From: Eubacteriaceae bacterium
Lineage (GTDB): Bacteria > Bacillota > Clostridia > Eubacteriales > Eubacteriaceae
Direction of reading: 5' to 3'
NCBI GenBank assembly: GCA_017405085.1
Contig: JAFRBB010000012.1
Coordinates: 1 to 64,000 of the forward strand
Length of the DNA stretch: 64,000 nt
Shown: positions 163-12,952 of the stretch, piece after piece
How positions within the stretch are numbered: the first letter of the stretch is position 1
How the letters are laid out: each line of letters begins with the position of its first letter
The notes under the pieces: generated by a model
Databases searched by the model: none
What the model saw: the letters and a program-made list of their open reading frames with translations, nothing else
What the model was told of the DNA's origin: nothing
Program-made: the position numbers and the translations under genes

Positions 163-367
163 TTTGCTTTTACGAAAATATTTCCAAGCTGGGATTATCG
201 TGTCACAGCAGAGCGATAACCCCTTGTCCGCAAAATCAGTTGCTAAGGCAACGACATAATTTACCGATTGACACTCCCCACTTCGGAAGACCATTTCGAG
301 TGAACTTATATTGCCCGCCCGCAAAAATGCTCGCGACATCATTTCATCTATAATCAAAGGAGTCGAT

Positions 368-1285
368 ATGACCATCACACAGCTCACCTATTTTCTCACG
401 ATTGTGGAAGCCGGATCGTTAAACAAAGCTTCCGAAAAACTGTATATCGCTCAGCCGTCGTTAACCGCGGCTTTAAAGGAACTGGAAAAAGAACTGGGCT
501 TTACGCTATTTTACAGAGGTTCCCGGGGCGTCACCTTGACGCCTGAAGGCGCGGATTTTCTGCCCTATGCCGGACAGGTTGTCGAACAATATGACAACAT
601 GATGGAATACGTGGGAAAACGGGAAAGTCAAAAGAAAAAATTCGGCATTTCCACCCAGCACTATTCCTTCGCGGTCAAAGCTTTTGTGGATCTGGTGAAA
701 GAATATGACACCAAATCCTATGAATTCGCTATCCGTGAAACCATGACCCGCGCCGTCATTGACGATGTGGCGACTCTGCGAAGCGAAATCGGTATTCTCT
801 ATCTCAGCGATTTTAATCGGGCCGCCATTTTAAAGCTGCTGGGCAATGCCGGACTGTCTTTTCATCACCTCATCGATTGCGAAACCTATGTGTATCTGTG
901 GCGAGGTCATCCTTTGGCCGGCCGGGATATCATTCGTTTTGAGGAACTCAAAGATTATCCCTGCCTTTCTTTTGAGCAGGGCGACGCCGCTTCCTTTTAT
1001 TTTGCCGAGGAAATTTTGAGCACAGCGGAATATATCCGCACCATCAAAGCCAATGACCGCGCGACAATGCTCAATTTAATGATCGGACTGAACGGCTACA
1101 CCCTTTGCTCGGGCATTATTTGTGAGGAACTCAATGGTGACGATTATCTCGCCGTGCCCTTCGCGGCGGATTCCGTCTCAGAAAGCTCAGTGATGTCCAT
1201 CGGCTACATCACCAAAGGAAACAGACTTGGCCCCATCGGAAAAAACTATATCGAACAAGTCAAGAAATATTTAAATATCGACTAA
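368..1285 (+). CDS. LysR-family transcriptional regulator
   Basis: This 305-residue protein has the length and layout of LysR regulators. The N-terminal winged helix-turn-helix is clear (roughly residues 1-65: QLTYFLTIVEAGSLNKASEK, then AQPSLTAALKELEKELG, then an RGSRGVTLTPEG turn). The rest is a periplasmic-binding-protein-like effector domain. The start at 368 is chosen because AAAGGAG (356-362) sits five bases upstream; the frame is open further upstream but without a ribosome site. The gene stands alone, with an O-acetylhomoserine sulfhydrylase and cysteine synthase downstream, so a role in sulfur amino acid control is plausible. That role is inferred from position only; the effector is unknown. 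Confidence 0.93.
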   Translation: MTITQLTYFLTIVEAGSLNKASEKLYIAQPSLTAALKELEKELGFTLFYRGSRGVTLTPEGADFLPYAGQVVEQYDNMMEYVGKRESQKKKFGISTQHYSFAVKAFVDLVKEYDTKSYEFAIRETMTRAVIDDVATLRSEIGILYLSDFNRAAILKLLGNAGLSFHHLIDCETYVYLWRGHPLAGRDIIRFEELKDYPCLSFEQGDAASFYFAEEILSTAEYIRTIKANDRATMLNLMIGLNGYTLCSGIICEELNGDDYLAVPFAADSVSESSVMSIGYITKGNRLGPIGKNYIEQVKKYLNID

Positions 1286-2458: not shown

Positions 2459-3766
2459 ATGTCAAACGCAATTAACGATTCCAAAAACTGGAGCTTTGAA
2501 ACCAAACAACTTCACATCGGTCAGGAACAAGCTGATCCCGTCACCGACGCGAGAGCCGTCCCGATTTACGCCACGTCCTCTTTTGTCTTTCACAACAGCG
2601 AGCATGCCGCGGATCGTTTCGGTCTTCGAGACGCCGGCAACATCTACGGCAGACTGACCAATCCCACCCAGGATATTTTTGAACAACGTATCGCCTCACT
2701 AGAAGGCGGAGTCGCCGCTCTGGCCACGGCATCCGGCGCCGCGGCGATCAATTACACCATTACCGCTCTGGCCAAAGCCGGGGAACACATTGTTGCCTCC
2801 AAAACCATTTACGGCGGCACCTTCAATCTTTTAAGCCACACCTTGCCGCTGACCAACGGCATTGAGACCACATTTGTCGATCCCGATGAAGAAGGCGCTT
2901 TCGAAGCGGCCATCAAGCCCAACACCAAAGCCATCTTTATCGAAACCTTGGGCAATCCCAATTCCAACATCATCGATATCGAAGCCGTGGCCAAAATCGC
3001 TCACGCCCATCAAATCCCCCTCGTCATCGACTCCACCTTCGCCACGCCCTACCTCGTTCGTCCCATCGAGTACGGCGCTGACATCGTCATTCACTCCGCG
3101 ACCAAATTCATCGGCGGACACGGAACGGCCATCGGCGGCGTCATTGTCGACGGCGGCACCTTTGACTGGAAAGCCTCAGGCAAATATCCGTGGATTTCCG
3201 AAGCCAATCCCAGCTATCACGGCATTTCCTTTGCCGATGCCGTCGGACCCGCGGCCTTCGCCACCTATATCCGCGCGATCTTGCTCAGAGATACCGGATC
3301 CACCCTATCGCCTTTCCACGCTTTTCTGTTCCTGCAGGGCTTGGAAACTTTATCGCTCCGGGTGGAACGACATGTGGAAAACGCCCTTCAAATCGTCAAT
3401 TATCTCAATGACCATCCCCAAGTCGAAGCCGTGCATCATCCTTCCCTTGAAAGCGAACCGAGCCACAATCTCTATCAAAAATACTTCCCGAACGGCGGCG
3501 GCTCCATCTTTACCTTCGAGATTAAAGGTGACGATGAAACAGCCAAGACCTTCATTGACAACCTCGCGATTTTCTCGCTTTTGGCCAACGTGGCAGATGT
3601 TAAATCTCTTGTTATTCATCCGGCAAGCACGACCCATTCCCAGTTAAGCGACGCGGAATTGTTGGATCAGGGCATTAAACCCAACACCATTCGACTGTCT
3701 ATCGGCATCGAGAAAATCGATGATTTAATTGCGGCCTTGGACGCGGCTTTTGAAGCGGTTCGGTAA
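2459..3766 (+). CDS. metY: O-acetylhomoserine aminocarboxypropyltransferase (sulfhydrylase)
   Basis: This 435-residue PLP enzyme of the Cys/Met metabolism family matches the usual MetY length. It makes homocysteine from O-acetylhomoserine and sulfide in the cytoplasm. The PLP lysine is Lys216 in HSATKFIGGHGTAIGG; the N-terminal block FETKQLHIGQ and NIYGRLTNPT (tetramer and phosphate contacts) and the EGGVAALATASGAAA cofactor loop are all present. GGAG lies about ten bases before the ATG. It is followed by cysteine synthase, so the two share sulfide as substrate. A candidate leader peptide and a repeat element lie upstream. No SAM riboswitch or T-box could be recognised before it. Confidence 0.95.
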   Translation: MSNAINDSKNWSFETKQLHIGQEQADPVTDARAVPIYATSSFVFHNSEHAADRFGLRDAGNIYGRLTNPTQDIFEQRIASLEGGVAALATASGAAAINYTITALAKAGEHIVASKTIYGGTFNLLSHTLPLTNGIETTFVDPDEEGAFEAAIKPNTKAIFIETLGNPNSNIIDIEAVAKIAHAHQIPLVIDSTFATPYLVRPIEYGADIVIHSATKFIGGHGTAIGGVIVDGGTFDWKASGKYPWISEANPSYHGISFADAVGPAAFATYIRAILLRDTGSTLSPFHAFLFLQGLETLSLRVERHVENALQIVNYLNDHPQVEAVHHPSLESEPSHNLYQKYFPNGGGSIFTFEIKGDDETAKTFIDNLAIFSLLANVADVKSLVIHPASTTHSQLSDAELLDQGIKPNTIRLSIGIEKIDDLIAALDAAFEAVR

Positions 3767-3944: not shown

Positions 3945-4877
3945 ATGGCAGATATCAAACAAAGTTCACTTGATTTAATCGGGAAAACCCCGATATTAAA
4001 ACTTAATCGTTACAGCGAAGACACGAATATCTCAGATGTTAACGTCCTCGCGAAATTGGAATATCTAAATCCCGCGGGATCCGTTAAGGACAGAATTGCC
4101 CTGGCCATGATTGAAGACGCCGAAAAAGCCGGCGTGCTAAAACCCGGCGCCACCATCATCGAACCCACCAGCGGCAACACGGGCATCGGTCTGGCCGCCG
4201 TCGCCGCCGCCAAAGGCTACCGCGCCATTCTGACCCTTCCGGAAACCATGAGTGTGGAACGACGCAATCTTTTGAAGGCCTACGGCGCGGAAATAGTCTT
4301 GACTGACGGCGCAAAAGGAATGAAAGGCGCCATCGCCAAAGCCGATGAACTGCTCAAAAGCATTGACGGCGCGGTGATTCCCGGCCAGTTTGTCAACGCA
4401 TCCAATCCCAAAGCCCATTATGACACAACGGGTCCGGAAATTTGGGACCAAACCGACGGCAAGGTGGATATTTTCATCGCCGGCGTCGGAACCGGCGGCA
4501 CCATCACCGGTGTCGGTGAATATTTAAAAGAAAAAAATCCCGCCGTTGAAATCATCGCCGTCGAACCGGCCACCTCACCCGTTCTCTCCAAAGGTGAAGC
4601 GGGGCCCCACAAAATCCAGGGCATCGGCGCCGGTTTTGTGCCCGACGTCCTCGACACCGGCATTTATGACGAAATTATCACCATCGACAACGAAGACGCT
4701 TTTGCCGAAGGCAAACGATTCGCCCGTACCGAAGGCATTTTGGTCGGCATTTCCTCCGGCGCCGCCCTCAAGGCCGCGAGAATCATTGCCCATCGTGAAG
4801 AAAACAAGGGTAAAACCATTGTTGTGCTCCTTCCCGATTCCGGTGACCGCTATTTATCGACACCGCTCTTTTCTTAA
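3945..4877 (+). CDS. cysK: cysteine synthase (O-acetylserine sulfhydrylase)
   Basis: This 310-residue PLP fold-type II enzyme makes cysteine from O-acetylserine and sulfide. The PLP lysine is Lys48 in [15 protein letters not shown]. The substrate loop [12 protein letters not shown], the phosphate-binding [12 protein letters not shown] and the C-terminal [14 protein letters not shown] are intact, and the length is typical for CysK/CysM. AGGAG precedes the ATG by about eight bases. It follows metY with a hairpin between. A second, diverged paralogue is at 14828-15745. It is assigned as the A-type enzyme on overall motif pattern; CysM-like specificity cannot be excluded. Confidence 0.95.
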
Positions 4878-4909: not shown

Positions 4910-4978
4910 AAAATTGTCTGATTTCGTCTTCGCGTGAATTCACCACACCCATCACGCCGCGGAATCGGACAATTTTTA
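4910..4978 (+). terminator. long terminator hairpin after cysK
   Basis: A 13-bp stem with one G-U pair joins bases 4911-4923 to about 4963-4975. It contains an inner GCGTGA/TCACGC hairpin and is followed by a T-rich run. It separates cysK from the amidotransferase gene. Confidence 0.7.
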
Positions 4979-5084: not shown

Positions 5085-5861
5085 ATGTGTGAATTATACG
5101 GATTTACGGGAAAAAAAACAAAACAACTGAATAGAGATTTAACGGAATTTTTCTCTCATTCCAACGCGCATCCCGATGGCTGGGGATTGGCCTTGATGAA
5201 CGATAACAGACATTTGATTCGTAAAAGACAATGCGCGGCTCATCAAAGCAGCGAGCTTCGTCAAATCCTTCGTTCACCGATACGCTCAGAAAAAGCCATC
5301 GCCCATATCCGTTTCGCCACCGTGGGATACGATGACTATAACAACACTCATCCATTTTGGGCTGAGGACGACAGCGGCAGATCCTGGATTTTTGCTCACA
5401 ACGGCACCGTTTTTGAAGGTGGAGAAAAACTGAGTCCTTATCAGATTTCTCAAAAGGGGACAACGGACAGTGAACGCATTTTTTTGTTATTGCTCGACCG
5501 CGTCAATCAAGCCCTCCGAAAAAAAGGCGGCGCCTTGGATGCCGATGAACGCTTTGCTGTTGTGGACGGATTGGTTCGGGACATTTCCCATCGCAATAAA
5601 ATCAACTTGCTGATTGATGACGGCAGCTCATTTTATGTGCATACCAACGAGCGGGGAACACTGTATTCACAGGAAAACGCAAACGGCGTCACTTTTTCCA
5701 CGCATCCCCTGGGAAAAGCGCAATGGGAACCCGTTCCCATGATGACAACGCTGGCCTATCAAAACGGCCGGCTTTTGCGGGCCGGCACACCCCATCACAA
5801 TGAGTATATTCCGGATGAAGAAGCGATTGCTGCGTTGTTTTTGGCCTATTCCGGATTGTAG
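5085..5861 (+). CDS. class II glutamine amidotransferase, YafJ/EgtC type
   Basis: Translation starts at the ATG at 5085, which puts the catalytic Cys at position 2 (MCELYGFTG) as class II amidotransferases require after Met removal; GAGGTG precedes it. The frame is open upstream, but an earlier start would bury the nucleophile. The family blocks appear in order: NAHPDGWGLA, AIAHIRFATVGY, NNTHPFW, FAHNGTVFEGG and GTTDSERIF. The 258-residue length fits the YafJ/EgtC group. Such proteins hydrolyse glutamine, or, in EgtC of ergothioneine synthesis, a gamma-glutamyl amide. It is followed after 24 bases by a glutamate-cysteine-ligase-like gene, evidently one operon. Confidence 0.88.
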   Translation: MCELYGFTGKKTKQLNRDLTEFFSHSNAHPDGWGLALMNDNRHLIRKRQCAAHQSSELRQILRSPIRSEKAIAHIRFATVGYDDYNNTHPFWAEDDSGRSWIFAHNGTVFEGGEKLSPYQISQKGTTDSERIFLLLLDRVNQALRKKGGALDADERFAVVDGLVRDISHRNKINLLIDDGSSFYVHTNERGTLYSQENANGVTFSTHPLGKAQWEPVPMMTTLAYQNGRLLRAGTPHHNEYIPDEEAIAALFLAYSGL

Positions 5862-5885
5862 AAATTTTTCAAGGAGAAAAAATCA

Positions 5886-7265
5886 ATGAATGAACACATC
5901 CGGAAAATGCTGTATAAACGGTATATTACACCGACAGAAAAGAAAAGGGATCGACGAATCGGCGTTGAAATTGAGATGCCCATTGTCAATTTAACCGGGG
6001 AAGCGACCGATCATGACATCTGTCGGCAGGCCTTTAACACCGCTGCGGCCTACTTTGGCTTTATCCCCCATCTTTATGATCAAAAAGGCAGATGCCATGA
6101 GGCGATGCATCGGAAAACGGGAGATCTGTTTTCTTTTGACTGCTCTTACAACAATTTAGAAATCTCCTTCGGTCCGGAAAAAAGTCTCATCGACGTCGCA
6201 AGCAGATTTGCCTCGTACGTGGGCGTCTTAAATGCCAAGTTGGAAGCCGATCATCATCTTTTAACGGGAATGGGCATTTCACCCTATTATAAGAAATGCC
6301 GAAAAGATTTTATTCCCTGCGGGCGTTATCAGATGCTGGAAGGCTATCTCAAAAAAGCAACCGACTGGAAAAAAGCCGGCGGCTTCCATCCCTATAATCA
6401 TTTTGCTTCTTTTGCCAGCGCGACCCAGGTTCAGCTCGATGTGAAAAAGGAAAATCTCATTCAAACGCTAAAAACCCTTTCTCTTGTGGAGCCGATCAAA
6501 TCCCTGCTCTTTGCCAATTCTGTCATGGAAGAAGATGAACCGGGTACGTTATGCGTCAGAGATGAGCTCTGGAGCTACAGCACTCACGGCATCAATCAAA
6601 GAAATGTCGGGTTGTTTGCTCAAAATCCAGAAACCATTGATGAATTGATTGATTACATTGCTTATACCAGCATTTTTTGCGCCGAACGTGATGGTAAGTA
6701 CCTGTTTTTTTACCCGATTCCCATTGCTGAGTATTTTGAACGTGCCACCATTGTCGGGGAATATTATGAAAACGGCCGTTATCTGACTTGTTCTTTTAAG
6801 CCCGAACACCGGGATATCAACTACCTCAGAACTTATAAGCATCTTGATTTGACCGCCAGAGGCACCATTGAATACCGGAGCCTTTGCACCCAACCCCTTT
6901 CTGAAGCCTTTTCCGCCATCGCCTTTCAAATTGGCTTAAGCGAGAAAATTCCCGAGCTCTCCGAATTGTTCTCCGGTGACGCCGCCTTATATCATCACGG
7001 CCTGACGGCAGACGAGCTCAGATGTCTTTTTAATCACGCCCGTTTCCCGAATACGTTGGATGAGCGCAGATTGCGAAATTTGATCAAATCTGTTATCGCG
7101 CTTTCCGAAGAAGGTCTTAAGACCAGAGGCTATGGTGAGGAAGTTTTTCTCGAAAGTGTCTATGACCGCGCCGAAAGGCTCTCCTCCCCCGCCAAGGACA
7201 TGCAGACCATGTTAAATGACGGGGTGCCGATGAATGATATTATCTATGATTACGCCGCACTATAA
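5886..7265 (+). CDS. glutamate-cysteine ligase-like carboxylate-amine ligase
   Basis: This 459-residue protein carries the hallmarks of the glutamate-cysteine ligase/amidoligase superfamily: the acidic metal/ATP strand RRIGVEIEMPIVN near residue 25, the second strand block YNNLEISFGP, and the C-terminal DLTARGTIEYRSLCTQP arginine/glutamate block. AAGGAG precedes the start by about nine bases. It probably joins a carboxylate to an amine using ATP; Glu plus Cys is the best-known reaction, and the cysteine and homocysteine synthases upstream fit that. The class II amidotransferase upstream recalls the EgtA/EgtC pair of ergothioneine synthesis and known amidoligase-amidotransferase couples, but no egtB, egtD or glutathione synthetase is present. 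Substrate unknown. Confidence 0.65.
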   Translation: MNEHIRKMLYKRYITPTEKKRDRRIGVEIEMPIVNLTGEATDHDICRQAFNTAAAYFGFIPHLYDQKGRCHEAMHRKTGDLFSFDCSYNNLEISFGPEKSLIDVASRFASYVGVLNAKLEADHHLLTGMGISPYYKKCRKDFIPCGRYQMLEGYLKKATDWKKAGGFHPYNHFASFASATQVQLDVKKENLIQTLKTLSLVEPIKSLLFANSVMEEDEPGTLCVRDELWSYSTHGINQRNVGLFAQNPETIDELIDYIAYTSIFCAERDGKYLFFYPIPIAEYFERATIVGEYYENGRYLTCSFKPEHRDINYLRTYKHLDLTARGTIEYRSLCTQPLSEAFSAIAFQIGLSEKIPELSELFSGDAALYHHGLTADELRCLFNHARFPNTLDERRLRNLIKSVIALSEEGLKTRGYGEEVFLESVYDRAERLSSPAKDMQTMLNDGVPMNDIIYDYAAL

Positions 7266-7285: not shown

Positions 7286-7324
7286 CCGCCCTTAAAACCG
7301 ATATGGTTTTAAGGGCGGTTTTTG
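7286..7324. terminator. bidirectional terminator
   Basis: CCGCCCTTAAAACC (7286-7299) pairs perfectly with GGTTTTAAGGGCGG (7305-7318). A T run follows on the plus strand and an A run precedes it, so it can end both the ligase unit and the convergent aro operon. Confidence 0.9.
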
Positions 7325-7336
7325 ATCGGAAAACCG

Positions 7337-7630
7337 TTATGAATGGTCTTTTGAAATGAGCGTGTGCTGCAATGCTTTGCTCTGCGCCATGACAAATGTG
7401 ATAAACGCCCGGTACATTTCCCGGTATTCGGGATTGTCAATGCGCGCCGTATTTTGATCGATGACGGCTTCTTCCCGCTCGGCATCATAAATCGGCAGGT
7501 TATTTTCACGTTTGGCGGCGGCGACGCCTTTTGCCGCGTTCATCCGCGCTTCATAAAGCTTTGCCATCTCGGCGTCGATGCGGTCAATCTCCGCGCGCAG
7601 TTCATTAAGAGTGCGTTTCGTGGCAGTCAT
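7337..7630 (-). CDS. chorismate mutase, AroQ class
   Basis: This small all-helical protein of 97 residues has the standard AroQ pattern: LNELRAEIDRIDAEMAKLYEARMNAA, then GVAAAKRENNLPIYDAEREEAV. Arg, Lys and Glu fall at the expected active-site positions. It converts chorismate to prephenate for Phe and Tyr synthesis. The start overlaps the aroC stop by four bases, and AAAGGAG lies inside the end of aroC, so it is translationally coupled as the last gene of the aro operon. It is a stand-alone domain, not fused to prephenate dehydratase or DAHP synthase. Confidence 0.9.
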   Translation of the reverse strand: MTATKRTLNELRAEIDRIDAEMAKLYEARMNAAKGVAAAKRENNLPIYDAEREEAVIDQNTARIDNPEYREMYRAFITFVMAQSKALQHTLISKDHS

Positions 7631-8721
7631 GACATCACTCCTTTCATTTCAACAAGCAAATCCAAAAGACCGACGGCACACGCGGCTTCCACCACCGGCG
7701 CCGCCCGAAGCACAATGCACGGATCGTGACGGCCTTTGATATGGATATCCGTCTCTGTCATTTCCGCTAAATTCACAGTTCGCTGAGTTTTTGCGATGGA
7801 TGGTGTCGGTTTAAAAGCCACGCGAAAGACAATGGGCATGGCATTGGTGATGCCCCCATTAATGCCGCCATTGTGATTGGTCCGCGTCCTGACCGTCTTG
7901 CCGTCTGTCACAAAAGCGTCATTGGCAAGGGAACCGCGCATGGTCGCGAAATCAAAGCCCGCGCCGAAACTCACCCCCTTCACCGCCGGAATGGCATAGA
8001 GAAGAGAAGCCAGCACCGATTCCACACCGTCAAACATCGGTGAGCCGAGCCCCCCGGGAACCCCCGTCGCGAAGCCTTCAATGACACCGCCGACGCTGTC
8101 TTCTTCCAATGCCGTTTCTTTGATTTCCGCAAGCATCGCCTCTTTTTTGGTCTCATCCGCCAGAGGAAACATGGGATCGGCCGCATGAAAGGTCTCATAG
8201 TCCTCAGGCGTGAGCGTTGTGTCGTCAAAGACACGACCGATGGAGACAATCCGCGAGGAAATGACAAGCCCGGGACATTCGGCCGCGAGCACCTGCTTGC
8301 ACACTGAACCCGCAAACACCAAAGGCGCCGTGAGCCTGCCGGAAAAATGACCGCCGCCGCGATAGTCGCTGTATCCGCCGTACCGCAGCTTTGCTGTATA
8401 ATCGGCATGGCCCGGACGCATGAGATCTTTGGTTCGCGCGTAATCACCGGAACGGGTGTTGCCGTTTCGGATGATGCCGGTCAGCGGCGTTCCCGTGGTT
8501 CGCCCATTAAAAAGGCCGGAGACAATCTCCACCCGGTCAGCTTCCTTTCTCGGCGTGGCCAGCGCTTTTCCGGAAGCGGCGCGCCGCTTCATTTCTTCCT
8601 CAATCAACGTTTCATCGATGGGAACACCGGCCGGAAGGCCGTCTAACGTCGCGCCGATGGCCGGGCCGTGAGACTCTCCGAAAACCGATAGCTTGATGTG
8701 ATTTTGCCAAAATGAACTCAT
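7627..8721 (-). CDS. aroC: chorismate synthase
   Basis: This 364-residue FMN-dependent lyase converts EPSP to chorismate, the last shikimate step. The signatures are FGESHGPAIGATLDGLP at residue 14, RPGHADYTAKLRYG with the following GGGHFSGRLTAP, and RTRTNHNGGINGGITNAMP. GGAGG lies before the ATG, inside the end of aroA, which it overlaps by four bases (ATGA). The riboflavin operon of this window would supply its reduced FMN cofactor, though the two loci are not linked. Confidence 0.97.
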   Translation of the reverse strand: MSSFWQNHIKLSVFGESHGPAIGATLDGLPAGVPIDETLIEEEMKRRAASGKALATPRKEADRVEIVSGLFNGRTTGTPLTGIIRNGNTRSGDYARTKDLMRPGHADYTAKLRYGGYSDYRGGGHFSGRLTAPLVFAGSVCKQVLAAECPGLVISSRIVSIGRVFDDTTLTPEDYETFHAADPMFPLADETKKEAMLAEIKETALEEDSVGGVIEGFATGVPGGLGSPMFDGVESVLASLLYAIPAVKGVSFGAGFDFATMRGSLANDAFVTDGKTVRTRTNHNGGINGGITNAMPIVFRVAFKPTPSIAKTQRTVNLAEMTETDIHIKGRHDPCIVLRAAPVVEAACAVGLLDLLVEMKGVMS

Positions 8722-10001
8722 AACGCCGCGCCTCCGATGGTTTTGTAATCCGAAAAGAAATCAGGATAGGATTTTGCCACAGCCTCCGCGCCGTCAATGA
8801 TCACGGGATGAGCGCACAGGGACGCCGCCGCCGTCATGGCCATGACGATGCGATGATCGTTGTAAGCATCGACCTTTCCTCCGAAAAGCGGTTTCCCGCC
8901 GTCAATGCGCACACTATCCGCGTCCGATTGAATGGTGGCTCCCAATCGACTGAGGGTATCGGTTACCGCGGCCAGTCTATCCGATTCTTTCAGACGAAGG
9001 CGCCCGGCGCCCACAATGCGCGTCGTGCCCTTCGCGGCGGCGCCGATGACCGCGAGAATCGGCACCAAATCGGGGCAGGCCGACGCATCGATGTCGATAC
9101 CCCGTAAATCCGAGGCCGAGACAAACAGTCCCCTTTTTGTGTAAGCGAGCCGTCCGCCCATTTGTCTTAAGATGTCCACAATCACCCGGTCTCCCTGAAC
9201 ATCATCGGGTCGGAGACCGGTGAGATGCAAAGCGCCGCCGAAGGATGCCATCGCCGCGAAAAACGCTGCTTGAGACCAATCCCCGGGAACCGTGAGACAC
9301 GCTCTTTGATAGCGCTGTCCGCCGGAAATGATAAACCGTCTGTGCCCGTCACAGTCCACGCGTACGCCGAAGGCAGCCATGACATCAAGGGTAATGTCCA
9401 CATAGGGCGCCGACTCCAATGGGCCGTCGATGATAATTTCAGAATTCCCTCGGACAAGAGGAAGCGCCAGCAAAAGGCCCGTCACAAATTGCGAAGACAC
9501 ATCGCCTGGAAGATGATAAACACCGTGCTCTAATTTCCCGGAAAGCGTCAAAGGCAGCTCCGTCTTTGAATCCGGTTTGGTAAGCGTCAGCGTCGTGCCC
9601 GCAAAAGCATCGTGATACGGCCCCAAAGGGCGCTCGGGAAGTCTTCCCCGCCCGATAAATTGGGTGTCCTTGGCGTCAAGACCGGCAATGGGGATCAAAA
9701 ACCGAAGGGTCGAACCCGACTCTAGGCAATCGATGGTTTTTCCAGCGGCTTTCGGCATGGCGCATCCGACAATCGACAGCTTAAAAAGCCCTCTCGGCTG
9801 CCGGGTATAGGAAATTTTCGCGCCTAAAGCTTCGCAGGCCGAGACCGTCGCGCGAATATCATCCGAAAGCAACACACCTCTGATCGTCGAAGTTCCTTCC
9901 GAAAGGGCCGCCGCGATAATCATCCGATGGCTCACACTTTTGGAAGGCGGCATGGCAAGGCTGCCGGAAACCCGGCAAGGCAAAATTTTTTTCGTGCTCA
10001 T
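8718..10001 (-). CDS. aroA: 3-phosphoshikimate 1-carboxyvinyltransferase (EPSP synthase)
   Basis: This 427-residue enzyme transfers enolpyruvate from PEP to shikimate-3-phosphate. Motifs are PPSKSVSHRMIIAAAL near residue 18, CLESGSTLRFLIP near residue 88 (the PEP-binding loop, in a form lacking the usual NSGT spelling), GDVSSQFVTGLLLALP, RLKESDRLAAV and DHRIVMAM. AAGGA lies before the ATG, nine bases after aroB. It is followed by aroC in a four-base overlap. Confidence 0.97.
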   Translation of the reverse strand: MSTKKILPCRVSGSLAMPPSKSVSHRMIIAAALSEGTSTIRGVLLSDDIRATVSACEALGAKISYTRQPRGLFKLSIVGCAMPKAAGKTIDCLESGSTLRFLIPIAGLDAKDTQFIGRGRLPERPLGPYHDAFAGTTLTLTKPDSKTELPLTLSGKLEHGVYHLPGDVSSQFVTGLLLALPLVRGNSEIIIDGPLESAPYVDITLDVMAAFGVRVDCDGHRRFIISGGQRYQRACLTVPGDWSQAAFFAAMASFGGALHLTGLRPDDVQGDRVIVDILRQMGGRLAYTKRGLFVSASDLRGIDIDASACPDLVPILAVIGAAAKGTTRIVGAGRLRLKESDRLAAVTDTLSRLGATIQSDADSVRIDGGKPLFGGKVDAYNDHRIVMAMTAAASLCAHPVIIDGAEAVAKSYPDFFSDYKTIGGAAL

Positions 10002-10010
10002 AAATCGTCC

Positions 10011-11078
10011 TTACGTGAAAAGCTGAAGGGCCTTATCCTTGTGAACCCGGACGATTTCAGCAACGCCGATTTTCGGAATCACGCAGACATTCAAAATATC
10101 TCCTTCGAATTTCTTATCGTTATTTAAGATGCTTTTGATTCGTTCGGTGTCCATCTCCGGCAAATCTTTCGGTAAACCATAGGTGTCCAGTAAAACGGCG
10201 AGATTTTTGAGGTTTTCTTCCGGCGTGATGCCTTCGCGCACCGACATCCGCGTGATGTTGTACATGCCGATGGCCACGGCTTCACCGTGGGTATAAGTCC
10301 CGTAATCAAAATAGGTTTCGATCACATGGCCGATGGTGTGCCCGAAATTCAAAATGCGGCGCACCCCGGATTCTCTTTCGTCTTCCTCCACCACATTGCG
10401 CTTTATTTGAAGACATTTTGTGACAATGTCCTCCATATCATCAAGGAGGTCCTCCTGATATTCATAACCCATCAACCGGACAAAAAGTTTGGATGAGCTG
10501 ATGCAGCCGTATTTGATCACCTCGCCCATGCCGTCCATGAGAAAATGATCGTCAAGGGTTTTCAAATATTCCGGATCCACCAAAACGGCCTTGGCCGGGT
10601 AGAATGCGCCGACCAGATTTTTGCCGACGGACAGGTCAACCCCTGTTTTACCGCCAACGGAGCTGTCCACTTGAGCTATCAGCGAGGTGGGCACCTGATA
10701 AAAATCAATCCCGCGCATATAAGTGGCAGCGGCAAAACCAGCGATATCCCCGACGACGCCGCCGCCGAGGGCAATGATGGCATCGGCCCGGGTCACGCCG
10801 TATTCCGAAAGCTCATAATAAATGTGTTCGAGGGTGGATAAATTCTTCGACTGTTCGCCGGGTTCGAGAACAATGGAAAAAACCGCCGCCCCAAAAGATT
10901 TCAGCTGCTTCTTAAGCGAAACCAGATGATGCTTGGCGACATTGCGATCGGTAATGATAACCATGTTGCGATAGGCGCCGAAGAATTGATCCATTTCAAA
11001 AAGGCGATCCTTCAAGCCATTTTCAATCAGAATTTGCGTGTTATCGGTGTGTTGTGTTTTACAGGTTAATTTTCTCAT
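10011..11078 (-). CDS. aroB: 3-dehydroquinate synthase
   Basis: This 355-residue NAD- and zinc-dependent enzyme makes 3-dehydroquinate from DAHP. The family core is clear: ALGGGVVGDIAGFAAATYMR, then VPTSLIAQVDSSVGGKTGVD, then the metal-ligand helix RILNFGHTIGHVIE and HGEAVAIGM. AAAGG precedes the ATG by about 12 bases. It is the first recognisable gene of the aroB-aroA-aroC-chorismate mutase operon; DAHP synthase, dehydroquinase, shikimate dehydrogenase and shikimate kinase are not in the window. Confidence 0.97.
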   Translation of the reverse strand: MRKLTCKTQHTDNTQILIENGLKDRLFEMDQFFGAYRNMVIITDRNVAKHHLVSLKKQLKSFGAAVFSIVLEPGEQSKNLSTLEHIYYELSEYGVTRADAIIALGGGVVGDIAGFAAATYMRGIDFYQVPTSLIAQVDSSVGGKTGVDLSVGKNLVGAFYPAKAVLVDPEYLKTLDDHFLMDGMGEVIKYGCISSSKLFVRLMGYEYQEDLLDDMEDIVTKCLQIKRNVVEEDERESGVRRILNFGHTIGHVIETYFDYGTYTHGEAVAIGMYNITRMSVREGITPEENLKNLAVLLDTYGLPKDLPEMDTERIKSILNNDKKFEGDILNVCVIPKIGVAEIVRVHKDKALQLFT

Positions 11079-12783: not shown

Positions 12784-12952
12784 TGAGCGATAAGCTCTTG
12801 TCAAACGGCCGTATGGGCAATGAGCTTGCTCATCAGAACATACGGACATTTGACAAGGCAACGGACATGAGCATATAGCGCGGTAGCGCGGGTGCGAATG
12901 GACGCCGAATTGCGAGAATGCGAAGCATGAAGCAATTCGGACTTATCGCTCA
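12784..12952. mobile_element. 169-bp MITE-like element with 11-bp terminal inverted repeats
   Basis: TGAGCGATAAG (12784-12794) and its exact reverse complement CTTATCGCTCA (12942-12952) bound the element. Inside are nested inverted repeats (TTGTCAAA/TTTGACAA, CGTATG/CATACG) and a copy of the 127-bp unit seen at 1803-2148. It has no coding capacity and no transposase. No clear target duplication was found. It is probably non-autonomous, mobilised in trans, or a spreading palindromic repeat. Confidence 0.6.

Follow-up and report, generated by a model that had tools for sequence, protein, structure and literature searches.

A glutamate-cysteine ligase-fold protein linked to a class II amidotransferase-type protein, and usually to GshA, in Clostridia

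What would an amidotransferase-like protein and a glutamate-cysteine ligase-like protein do side by side, downstream of genes for cysteine and homocysteine synthesis? This question is raised by a stretch of 64,000 nucleotides from a Eubacteriaceae bacterium (the window), where a class II (Ntn) glutamine amidotransferase/amidohydrolase of the YafJ-EgtC type (AT, 258 aa, 5085..5861, + strand) is followed by a protein of the glutamate-cysteine ligase (GCL) fold with a remodelled substrate loop (LIG, 459 aa, 5886..7265, + strand). An earlier note on this DNA had proposed that the two proteins either add and remove a glutamyl group or use glutamine-derived ammonia to amidate a carboxylate of a sulfur metabolite, with a new small thiol as a possible product.

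The locus and its possible transcription unit

The AT frame runs from the ATG at 5085 to the stop codon ending at 5861 and begins with MCELYGF..., so that Cys2 is present, and the LIG frame runs from the ATG at 5886 to the stop codon ending at 7265 and contains the GVEIEMP and GTIEYR blocks; 24 bases separate the two genes on the same strand. Upstream on this strand are metY (O-acetylhomoserine/O-acetylserine sulfhydrylase, 2459..3766; 618.9 bits to NCBIfam TIGR01326, cut-off 495) and cysK (cysteine synthase A, 3945..4877; 447.8 bits to NCBIfam TIGR01139, cut-off 351), together with a LysR-type regulator gene (311..1285, + strand; Pfam HTH_1/LysR_substrate) whose start codon is probably located downstream of the listed TTG. 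The sulfur setting extends beyond the window, since metY recurs near the relatives, cysK is also present near their cassettes, and close relatives of the LysR protein are encoded directly upstream of AT-LIG-GshA in three loci (L052, L053 and L101); a further LysR relative (64% identity) adjoins MetY-GshA in L188.

The pair had been described as lying directly after the two synthase genes. Their order and strand are indeed as described, but 207 bases intervene between cysK and AT, and these contain an inverted repeat with 17-nt arms (88% complementary) followed by T's (4910..4976, + strand). This repeat could be a terminator or a regulatory site; a consensus terminator scan of the window did not list it. 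Given the 207-base spacing and the repeat, AT and LIG may form a two-gene transcription unit of their own. Behind LIG, repeat analysis found a perfect 14-bp inverted repeat (7286..7318), and this stem is likely a terminator that also serves the convergent chorismate genes. The latter (chorismate mutase, aroC, aroA and aroB, 7337-11078) directly follow LIG and are not kept with the cassette outside the genus.

At the cassette, Rfam searches of the window and 22 relatives turned up no sulfur riboswitch, whether T-box, SAM or another type. A tandem array (1729-2148; period 127, 2.8 copies, 97% match) lies in the interval from the LysR gene to metY and overlaps an Rfam match to the Clostridiales-1 RNA (1729-1886), and a second Clostridiales-1 RNA is found at 12788-12948.

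Folds and conserved residues of AT and LIG

AT matches Pfam GATase_4 with 116.7 bits (cut-off 23). Its Cys2, Arg76, Asn106-Gly107 and Asp128 are invariant in the 17 relatives aligned, and the oxyanion and gamma-glutamyl-binding motifs R-x-A-T, H-N-G and T-D-S are kept. In class II amidotransferases, residues of this set bind the gamma-glutamyl group. The structure model of AT (pLDDT 89) is nearest to the solved folds of a YafJ-like protein (1te5) and of EgtC (4zfj), with PurF and GlmS behind. The assignment of AT as a YafJ/EgtC-type protein with an intact Cys2 is thus well founded, yet its score to the EgtC equivalog model (NCBIfam TIGR03442) is 53.7 bits, against a cut-off of 218.65.

LIG is more remote from described families. 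It scores 13.4 bits to Pfam GCS2 (PF04107), under the gathering cut-off of 21, 26.6 bits to the plant-type GCL model NCBIfam TIGR01436 (cut-off 463.15), which it matches at 1.8e-6, and 13 bits to the EgtA equivalog model NCBIfam TIGR03444 (cut-off 370.8). A sequence search of the PDB returned plant GCL (2gwc/6gmo) as the best match at 7e-10, or at 1.8e-26 by profile. The AlphaFold model built from an alignment of 62 relatives (pLDDT 96.3) has its best PDB match in plant GCL 2gwc as well (Foldseek E 4e-20, TM 0.77/0.80). The profile searches and structure prediction that the earlier note had called for therefore place AT in GATase_4 and LIG in the GCL fold, as its GVEIEMP and TIEYR blocks had suggested.

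Besides the fold, LIG shares with the plant and proteobacterial GCLs (TIGR01436; 2gwc, 6gmo) the motifs F/L-E-x-S, Q-V-x-L-D, R-x-x-x-W and E-x-R, although the identity is only about 20%. Eleven residues are invariant among the 62 relatives (Glu28, Glu30, Glu92, Gln181, Asp185, Arg225, Arg325, Glu329, Arg331, Cys334 and Gln336), and six of them (Glu92, Gln181, Asp185, Arg225, Glu329 and Arg331) align with the plant GCL motifs. By contrast, the W-x-D-x-D-x-D/P-x-R-T-G motif of plant GCL is missing from LIG in this alignment; S-T-H-G-x-N-P-x-N-x-G stands in place of DxDRTG, and the position aligned with the arginine of that motif (240 in LIG) is occupied by Asn in 56 of the 62 sequences and by Ile in the other 6. 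The motif R-G-T-x-E-x-R-S-x-C-x-Q-P is specific to LIG and does not occur in the plant and proteobacterial enzymes. With the GCL motif residues kept, the DxDRTG loop replaced, and Cys334 and Gln336 invariant, LIG would appear to be a working ligase with an altered substrate site.

A widespread gene set and its variants

A search of genome contigs with the LIG alignment yielded 452 relatives, and the analysis covered the 80 best; a search with the single sequence had found none. Most of these 80 come from metagenome-assembled genomes (MAGs), assigned to Lachnospiraceae, Oscillospiraceae, Eubacteriaceae and Clostridiales Family XIII from rumen and gut, and absences are accordingly soft. AT adjoins LIG at most of the 80 loci, and neighbour clustering found a third gene in 58 of them. 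Its product is a stand-alone GshA-family protein (PF04262; 260.8 bits to the GshA/GshB fusion model), corresponding to the N-terminal half of GshF. No significant profile similarity by sequence was detected between GshA and LIG; LIG belongs to the other GCL lineage. Among the 42 loci flanked by 3 kb or more on each side of LIG, AT is present in 38, GshA in 36 and both in 34. The pair is thus real, but the usual unit has GshA as a third gene rather than being the two-gene unit first pictured.

The order of the three genes varies: AT-LIG-GshA occurs at 39 of the best 80 loci, GshA-AT-LIG at 13, LIG-GshA-AT at 4 and AT-GshA-LIG at one, and the partial sets include one locus with LIG-AT and no GshA. 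In the LIG tree the three commoner orders fall mainly on separate branches, and the window LIG clusters with rumen sequences and not with the LIG proteins of its own family, which together suggest that the cassette has moved between lineages. In four genomes (G342, G350, G351 and G352) AT and GshA are side by side with LIG elsewhere. In three genomes of genus g3 LIG occurs without AT, and in two of these three loci an M20 amidohydrolase gene is directly upstream of LIG (L036:7279-8514 and L037:7305-8507), a weak hint that the role of AT is hydrolysis.

At least one of metY, patB, metQ, cysK or asrC is within about 6 kb at 19 of the 42 well-flanked loci, compared with none of a small control of 10 outlying-LIG loci (p = 0.009). 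The outlying subfamily (L190-L199 and L202; about 30% identity, 200-300 bits, other clostridial families) showed no AT, GshA or sulfur neighbours at these loci. It has other neighbours and lacks Cys86, Gln183, His234 and Arg315, and was rejected as part of the system. Co-variation, expressed as partial r, is 0.65 for LIG-GshA, 0.36 for AT-GshA and 0.32 for AT-LIG.

Co-occurrence was also checked in 291 genomes of the class, with AT orthologues taken at more than 300 bits and GshA/GshF at 250 bits or more. Of these, 5 have close LIG, 10 an AT orthologue and 16 GshA or GshF. In all five LIG genomes AT is adjacent to LIG or in the same cluster, and each also has a gene of the GshA or GshF type. 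Four of the other AT genomes (G145, G172, G191 and G197) carry GCL2, a GCL of the plant type, which scores 145 bits to TIGR01436 and retains the DPDRTG motif (W-D-D-L-D-P-x-R-T-G), its gene overlapping or touching AT, while in the last (G061) a cassette-type GshA is the sole ligase of these types, encoded on a different contig from AT. GCL2 above 800 bits occurs in exactly these 4 of the 291 genomes. The LIG and GCL2 genome sets do not overlap, even though G143 (LIG) and G191 (GCL2) are of the same genus. Hypergeometric values, uncorrected for kinship, are 1.5e-8 for AT-LIG and 7e-7 for AT-GCL2, the ten AT genomes representing nine families. The genes next to GCL2-AT encode CysK, MetN/MetI- or cystine-type transporters, MetY, ThiF/MoeB-like, JAMM and rhodanese-TusA-DsrE proteins.

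The survey hence contradicts the idea that the two genes rarely co-occur, and supports the functional pairing proposed earlier, with the amendment that a plant-type GCL is another partner of AT. The factor shared by its partners LIG, GCL2 and GshA, all of GCL fold, is gamma-glutamyl ligation. Taken together, these loci define a widespread gene set in which a GCL-fold ligase and an amide-cutting enzyme are linked, usually with GshA. A literature search, mostly of open-access papers, gave no description of the AT-LIG pair or of the gene set, and nothing on the pairing of other amidoligases with YafJ-like amidotransferases that the earlier note had mentioned.

A possible gamma-glutamyl shuttle and its alternatives

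The window genome itself has a stand-alone GshA-type gene on another contig (C34:59484-60755, in a 498-aa frame), followed by a thioesterase-like gene and not by a glutathione synthetase gene. When it was searched with the ATP-grasp half of a relative's GshF, a probe for GshF-type and not E. coli-type GshB enzymes, only CarB and D-Ala-D-Ala ligase were returned, and no GCL2-type gene was found. The earlier note had seen no egtD nearby, and this absence holds genome-wide, with no PF10017 match in a search that was positive in 2 of 14 control genomes. Having a stand-alone GshA and no GshF-type synthetase, the cell probably makes gamma-Glu-Cys but not glutathione by the known fused route, as judged from gene content.

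We consider it about an even chance that AT and LIG are the removing and adding sides of a gamma-glutamyl shuttle acting on sulfur metabolites. LIG would use ATP to join the gamma-carboxylate of glutamate to the amine of cysteine or of a cysteine-derived or closely related acceptor, which may differ from cysteine because the DxDRTG loop is rebuilt. AT would cleave the gamma-glutamyl bond, and a GshA-type enzyme, in most relatives within the set and in the window genome elsewhere, would supply gamma-glutamylcysteine. Such a unit could keep cysteine in store, shield it or process it in the form of gamma-glutamyl derivatives, in cells apparently devoid of a GshF-type glutathione synthetase. Direct evidence comes from the folds, the intact catalytic residues, linkage, co-occurrence and the sulfur neighbourhood, and from these we infer the substrates, direction and physiological purpose. 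AT alternates among three GCL-fold partners, for which a gamma-glutamyl-cysteine derivative is the simplest common substrate, and is most likely an amidase that opens such a derivative; we infer this hydrolytic role from fold, residues and linkage. Speaking against a shuttle are the AT-LIG co-variation, which is below that of LIG-GshA, the location of AT homologues away from LIG in genera g4 and g5, and the g3 genomes without AT. A further objection is that, if GshA already makes gamma-Glu-Cys, a duplicate enzyme in one operon would be odd, so LIG probably has an acceptor or donor other than that of GshA.

The strongest co-variation, that of LIG with GshA, is a hint of two ligations in succession and not of a LIG-AT pair: GshA would make gamma-Glu-Cys, LIG would add a further unit to it in the place of a glutathione synthetase, and AT would trim or recycle the gamma-glutamyl end, giving a non-glutathione thiol. 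The GshA- or GshF-type gene in all five close-LIG genomes of the class sample, the GshA without GshF-type synthetase in the window genome and the replaced DxDRTG motif agree with this sequence of steps, which we nevertheless regard as rather unlikely. Family XIII genomes and G007 yielded LIG and AT but no GshA (some assemblies being incomplete), LIG is found alongside fused GshF in G014 and three g3 genomes (G027, G028 and G033), and the described enzymes of this fold mostly work by activating glutamate at its gamma-carboxylate. The same two arrangements weaken the proposal that LIG simply replaces the missing glutathione synthetase.

Amidation, the other mechanism of the earlier note, would have AT hydrolyse glutamine and pass ammonia to LIG, which would form an amide on a sulfur metabolite. 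By family AT is a class II glutamine amidotransferase, and it adjoins a ligase whose fold is related to that of glutamine synthetase. However, the partners of AT are ligases of three unrelated types, and its gene is not always linked to LIG, which ill suits a channelled two-subunit enzyme; the co-variation of AT with LIG is the weakest of the three pairs, and the AT fold is nearer to EgtC than to GlmS or PurF. Amidation is thus improbable, and glutamyl addition and removal fits better. We find it more improbable still that the pair carries out the EgtA and EgtC reactions within an anaerobic route of sulfur transfer ending with a C-S lyase such as PatB. The weak matches to both Egt models and a PatB-family lyase gene within reach of the cassette at 9 of the best 80 loci point that way, but both scores fall far under the equivalog cut-offs, EgtD is absent from the window genome and PatB is missing at most loci. 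Membership in the ergothioneine pathway proper was rejected on the low EgtA/EgtC model scores and the lack of EgtD. That two ordinary sulfur or nitrogen genes merely happen to be side by side is scarcely credible: a terminator-like repeat may part them from cysK and the g4/g5 homologues of AT have other neighbours, but adjacency and co-occurrence in several gene orders across Lachnospiraceae, Oscillospiraceae, Family XIII and Eubacteriaceae contradict it.

For the favoured shuttle, EgtA/EgtC is the precedent of adding and then removing, EgtC opening a gamma-glutamyl bond in ergothioneine synthesis (PMC6374457). The mycobacterial pair likewise combines a GCL-fold ligase with a class II Ntn amidohydrolase to put a gamma-glutamyl group on and off in a sulfur pathway, whereas the present cassette differs in its low model scores, the lack of EgtD, the recurrent extra GshA and its anaerobic hosts. 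Yeast Dug2-Dug3 opens the gamma-glutamyl bonds of glutathione and gamma-Glu-Met (PMC7617739) and, like AT, involves a class II glutamine amidotransferase-type protein; unlike AT, Dug3 depends on Dug2 and is not encoded beside a ligase. The M20 amidohydrolase beside LIG in g3 loosely recalls the M20-like Dug2.

The interpretation of the earlier note is thus partly supported, and a new small thiol is possible. It is conceivable, though less likely than not, that in rumen and gut Clostridia without glutathione synthetase GshA, LIG and AT build and recycle a low-molecular-weight thiol derived from a gamma-glutamyl compound and not described before, LIG being a new GCL-fold branch with a new acceptor or donor. 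For the question of which small thiols strictly anaerobic gut and rumen Clostridia use, the cassette offers three genes and a candidate chemistry, and with carriers that can be cultured, such as Ruminococcus flavefaciens 007c (locus L114), it opens the way to direct tests.

The survey also suggests that some widespread YafJ-group class II amidotransferases may remove gamma-glutamyl groups rather than supply ammonia. The AT family is not exclusive to the cassette, as the g4 and g5 homologues have other neighbours. Those of g4 (L044, L046 and L047; about 290 bits) adjoin glutamate-synthase-like or glutamine-synthetase-like genes, which suggests a second role in nitrogen metabolism in that genus. 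At one GCL2 locus (L224:187-8265), the row consists of LysR, a cysK fragment, GCL2, AT, thioredoxin-like, JAMM, ThiF/MoeB-like and MetY-like genes and a rhodanese-TusA-DsrE fusion, an arrangement resembling sulfur-carrier-based cysteine or homocysteine synthesis.
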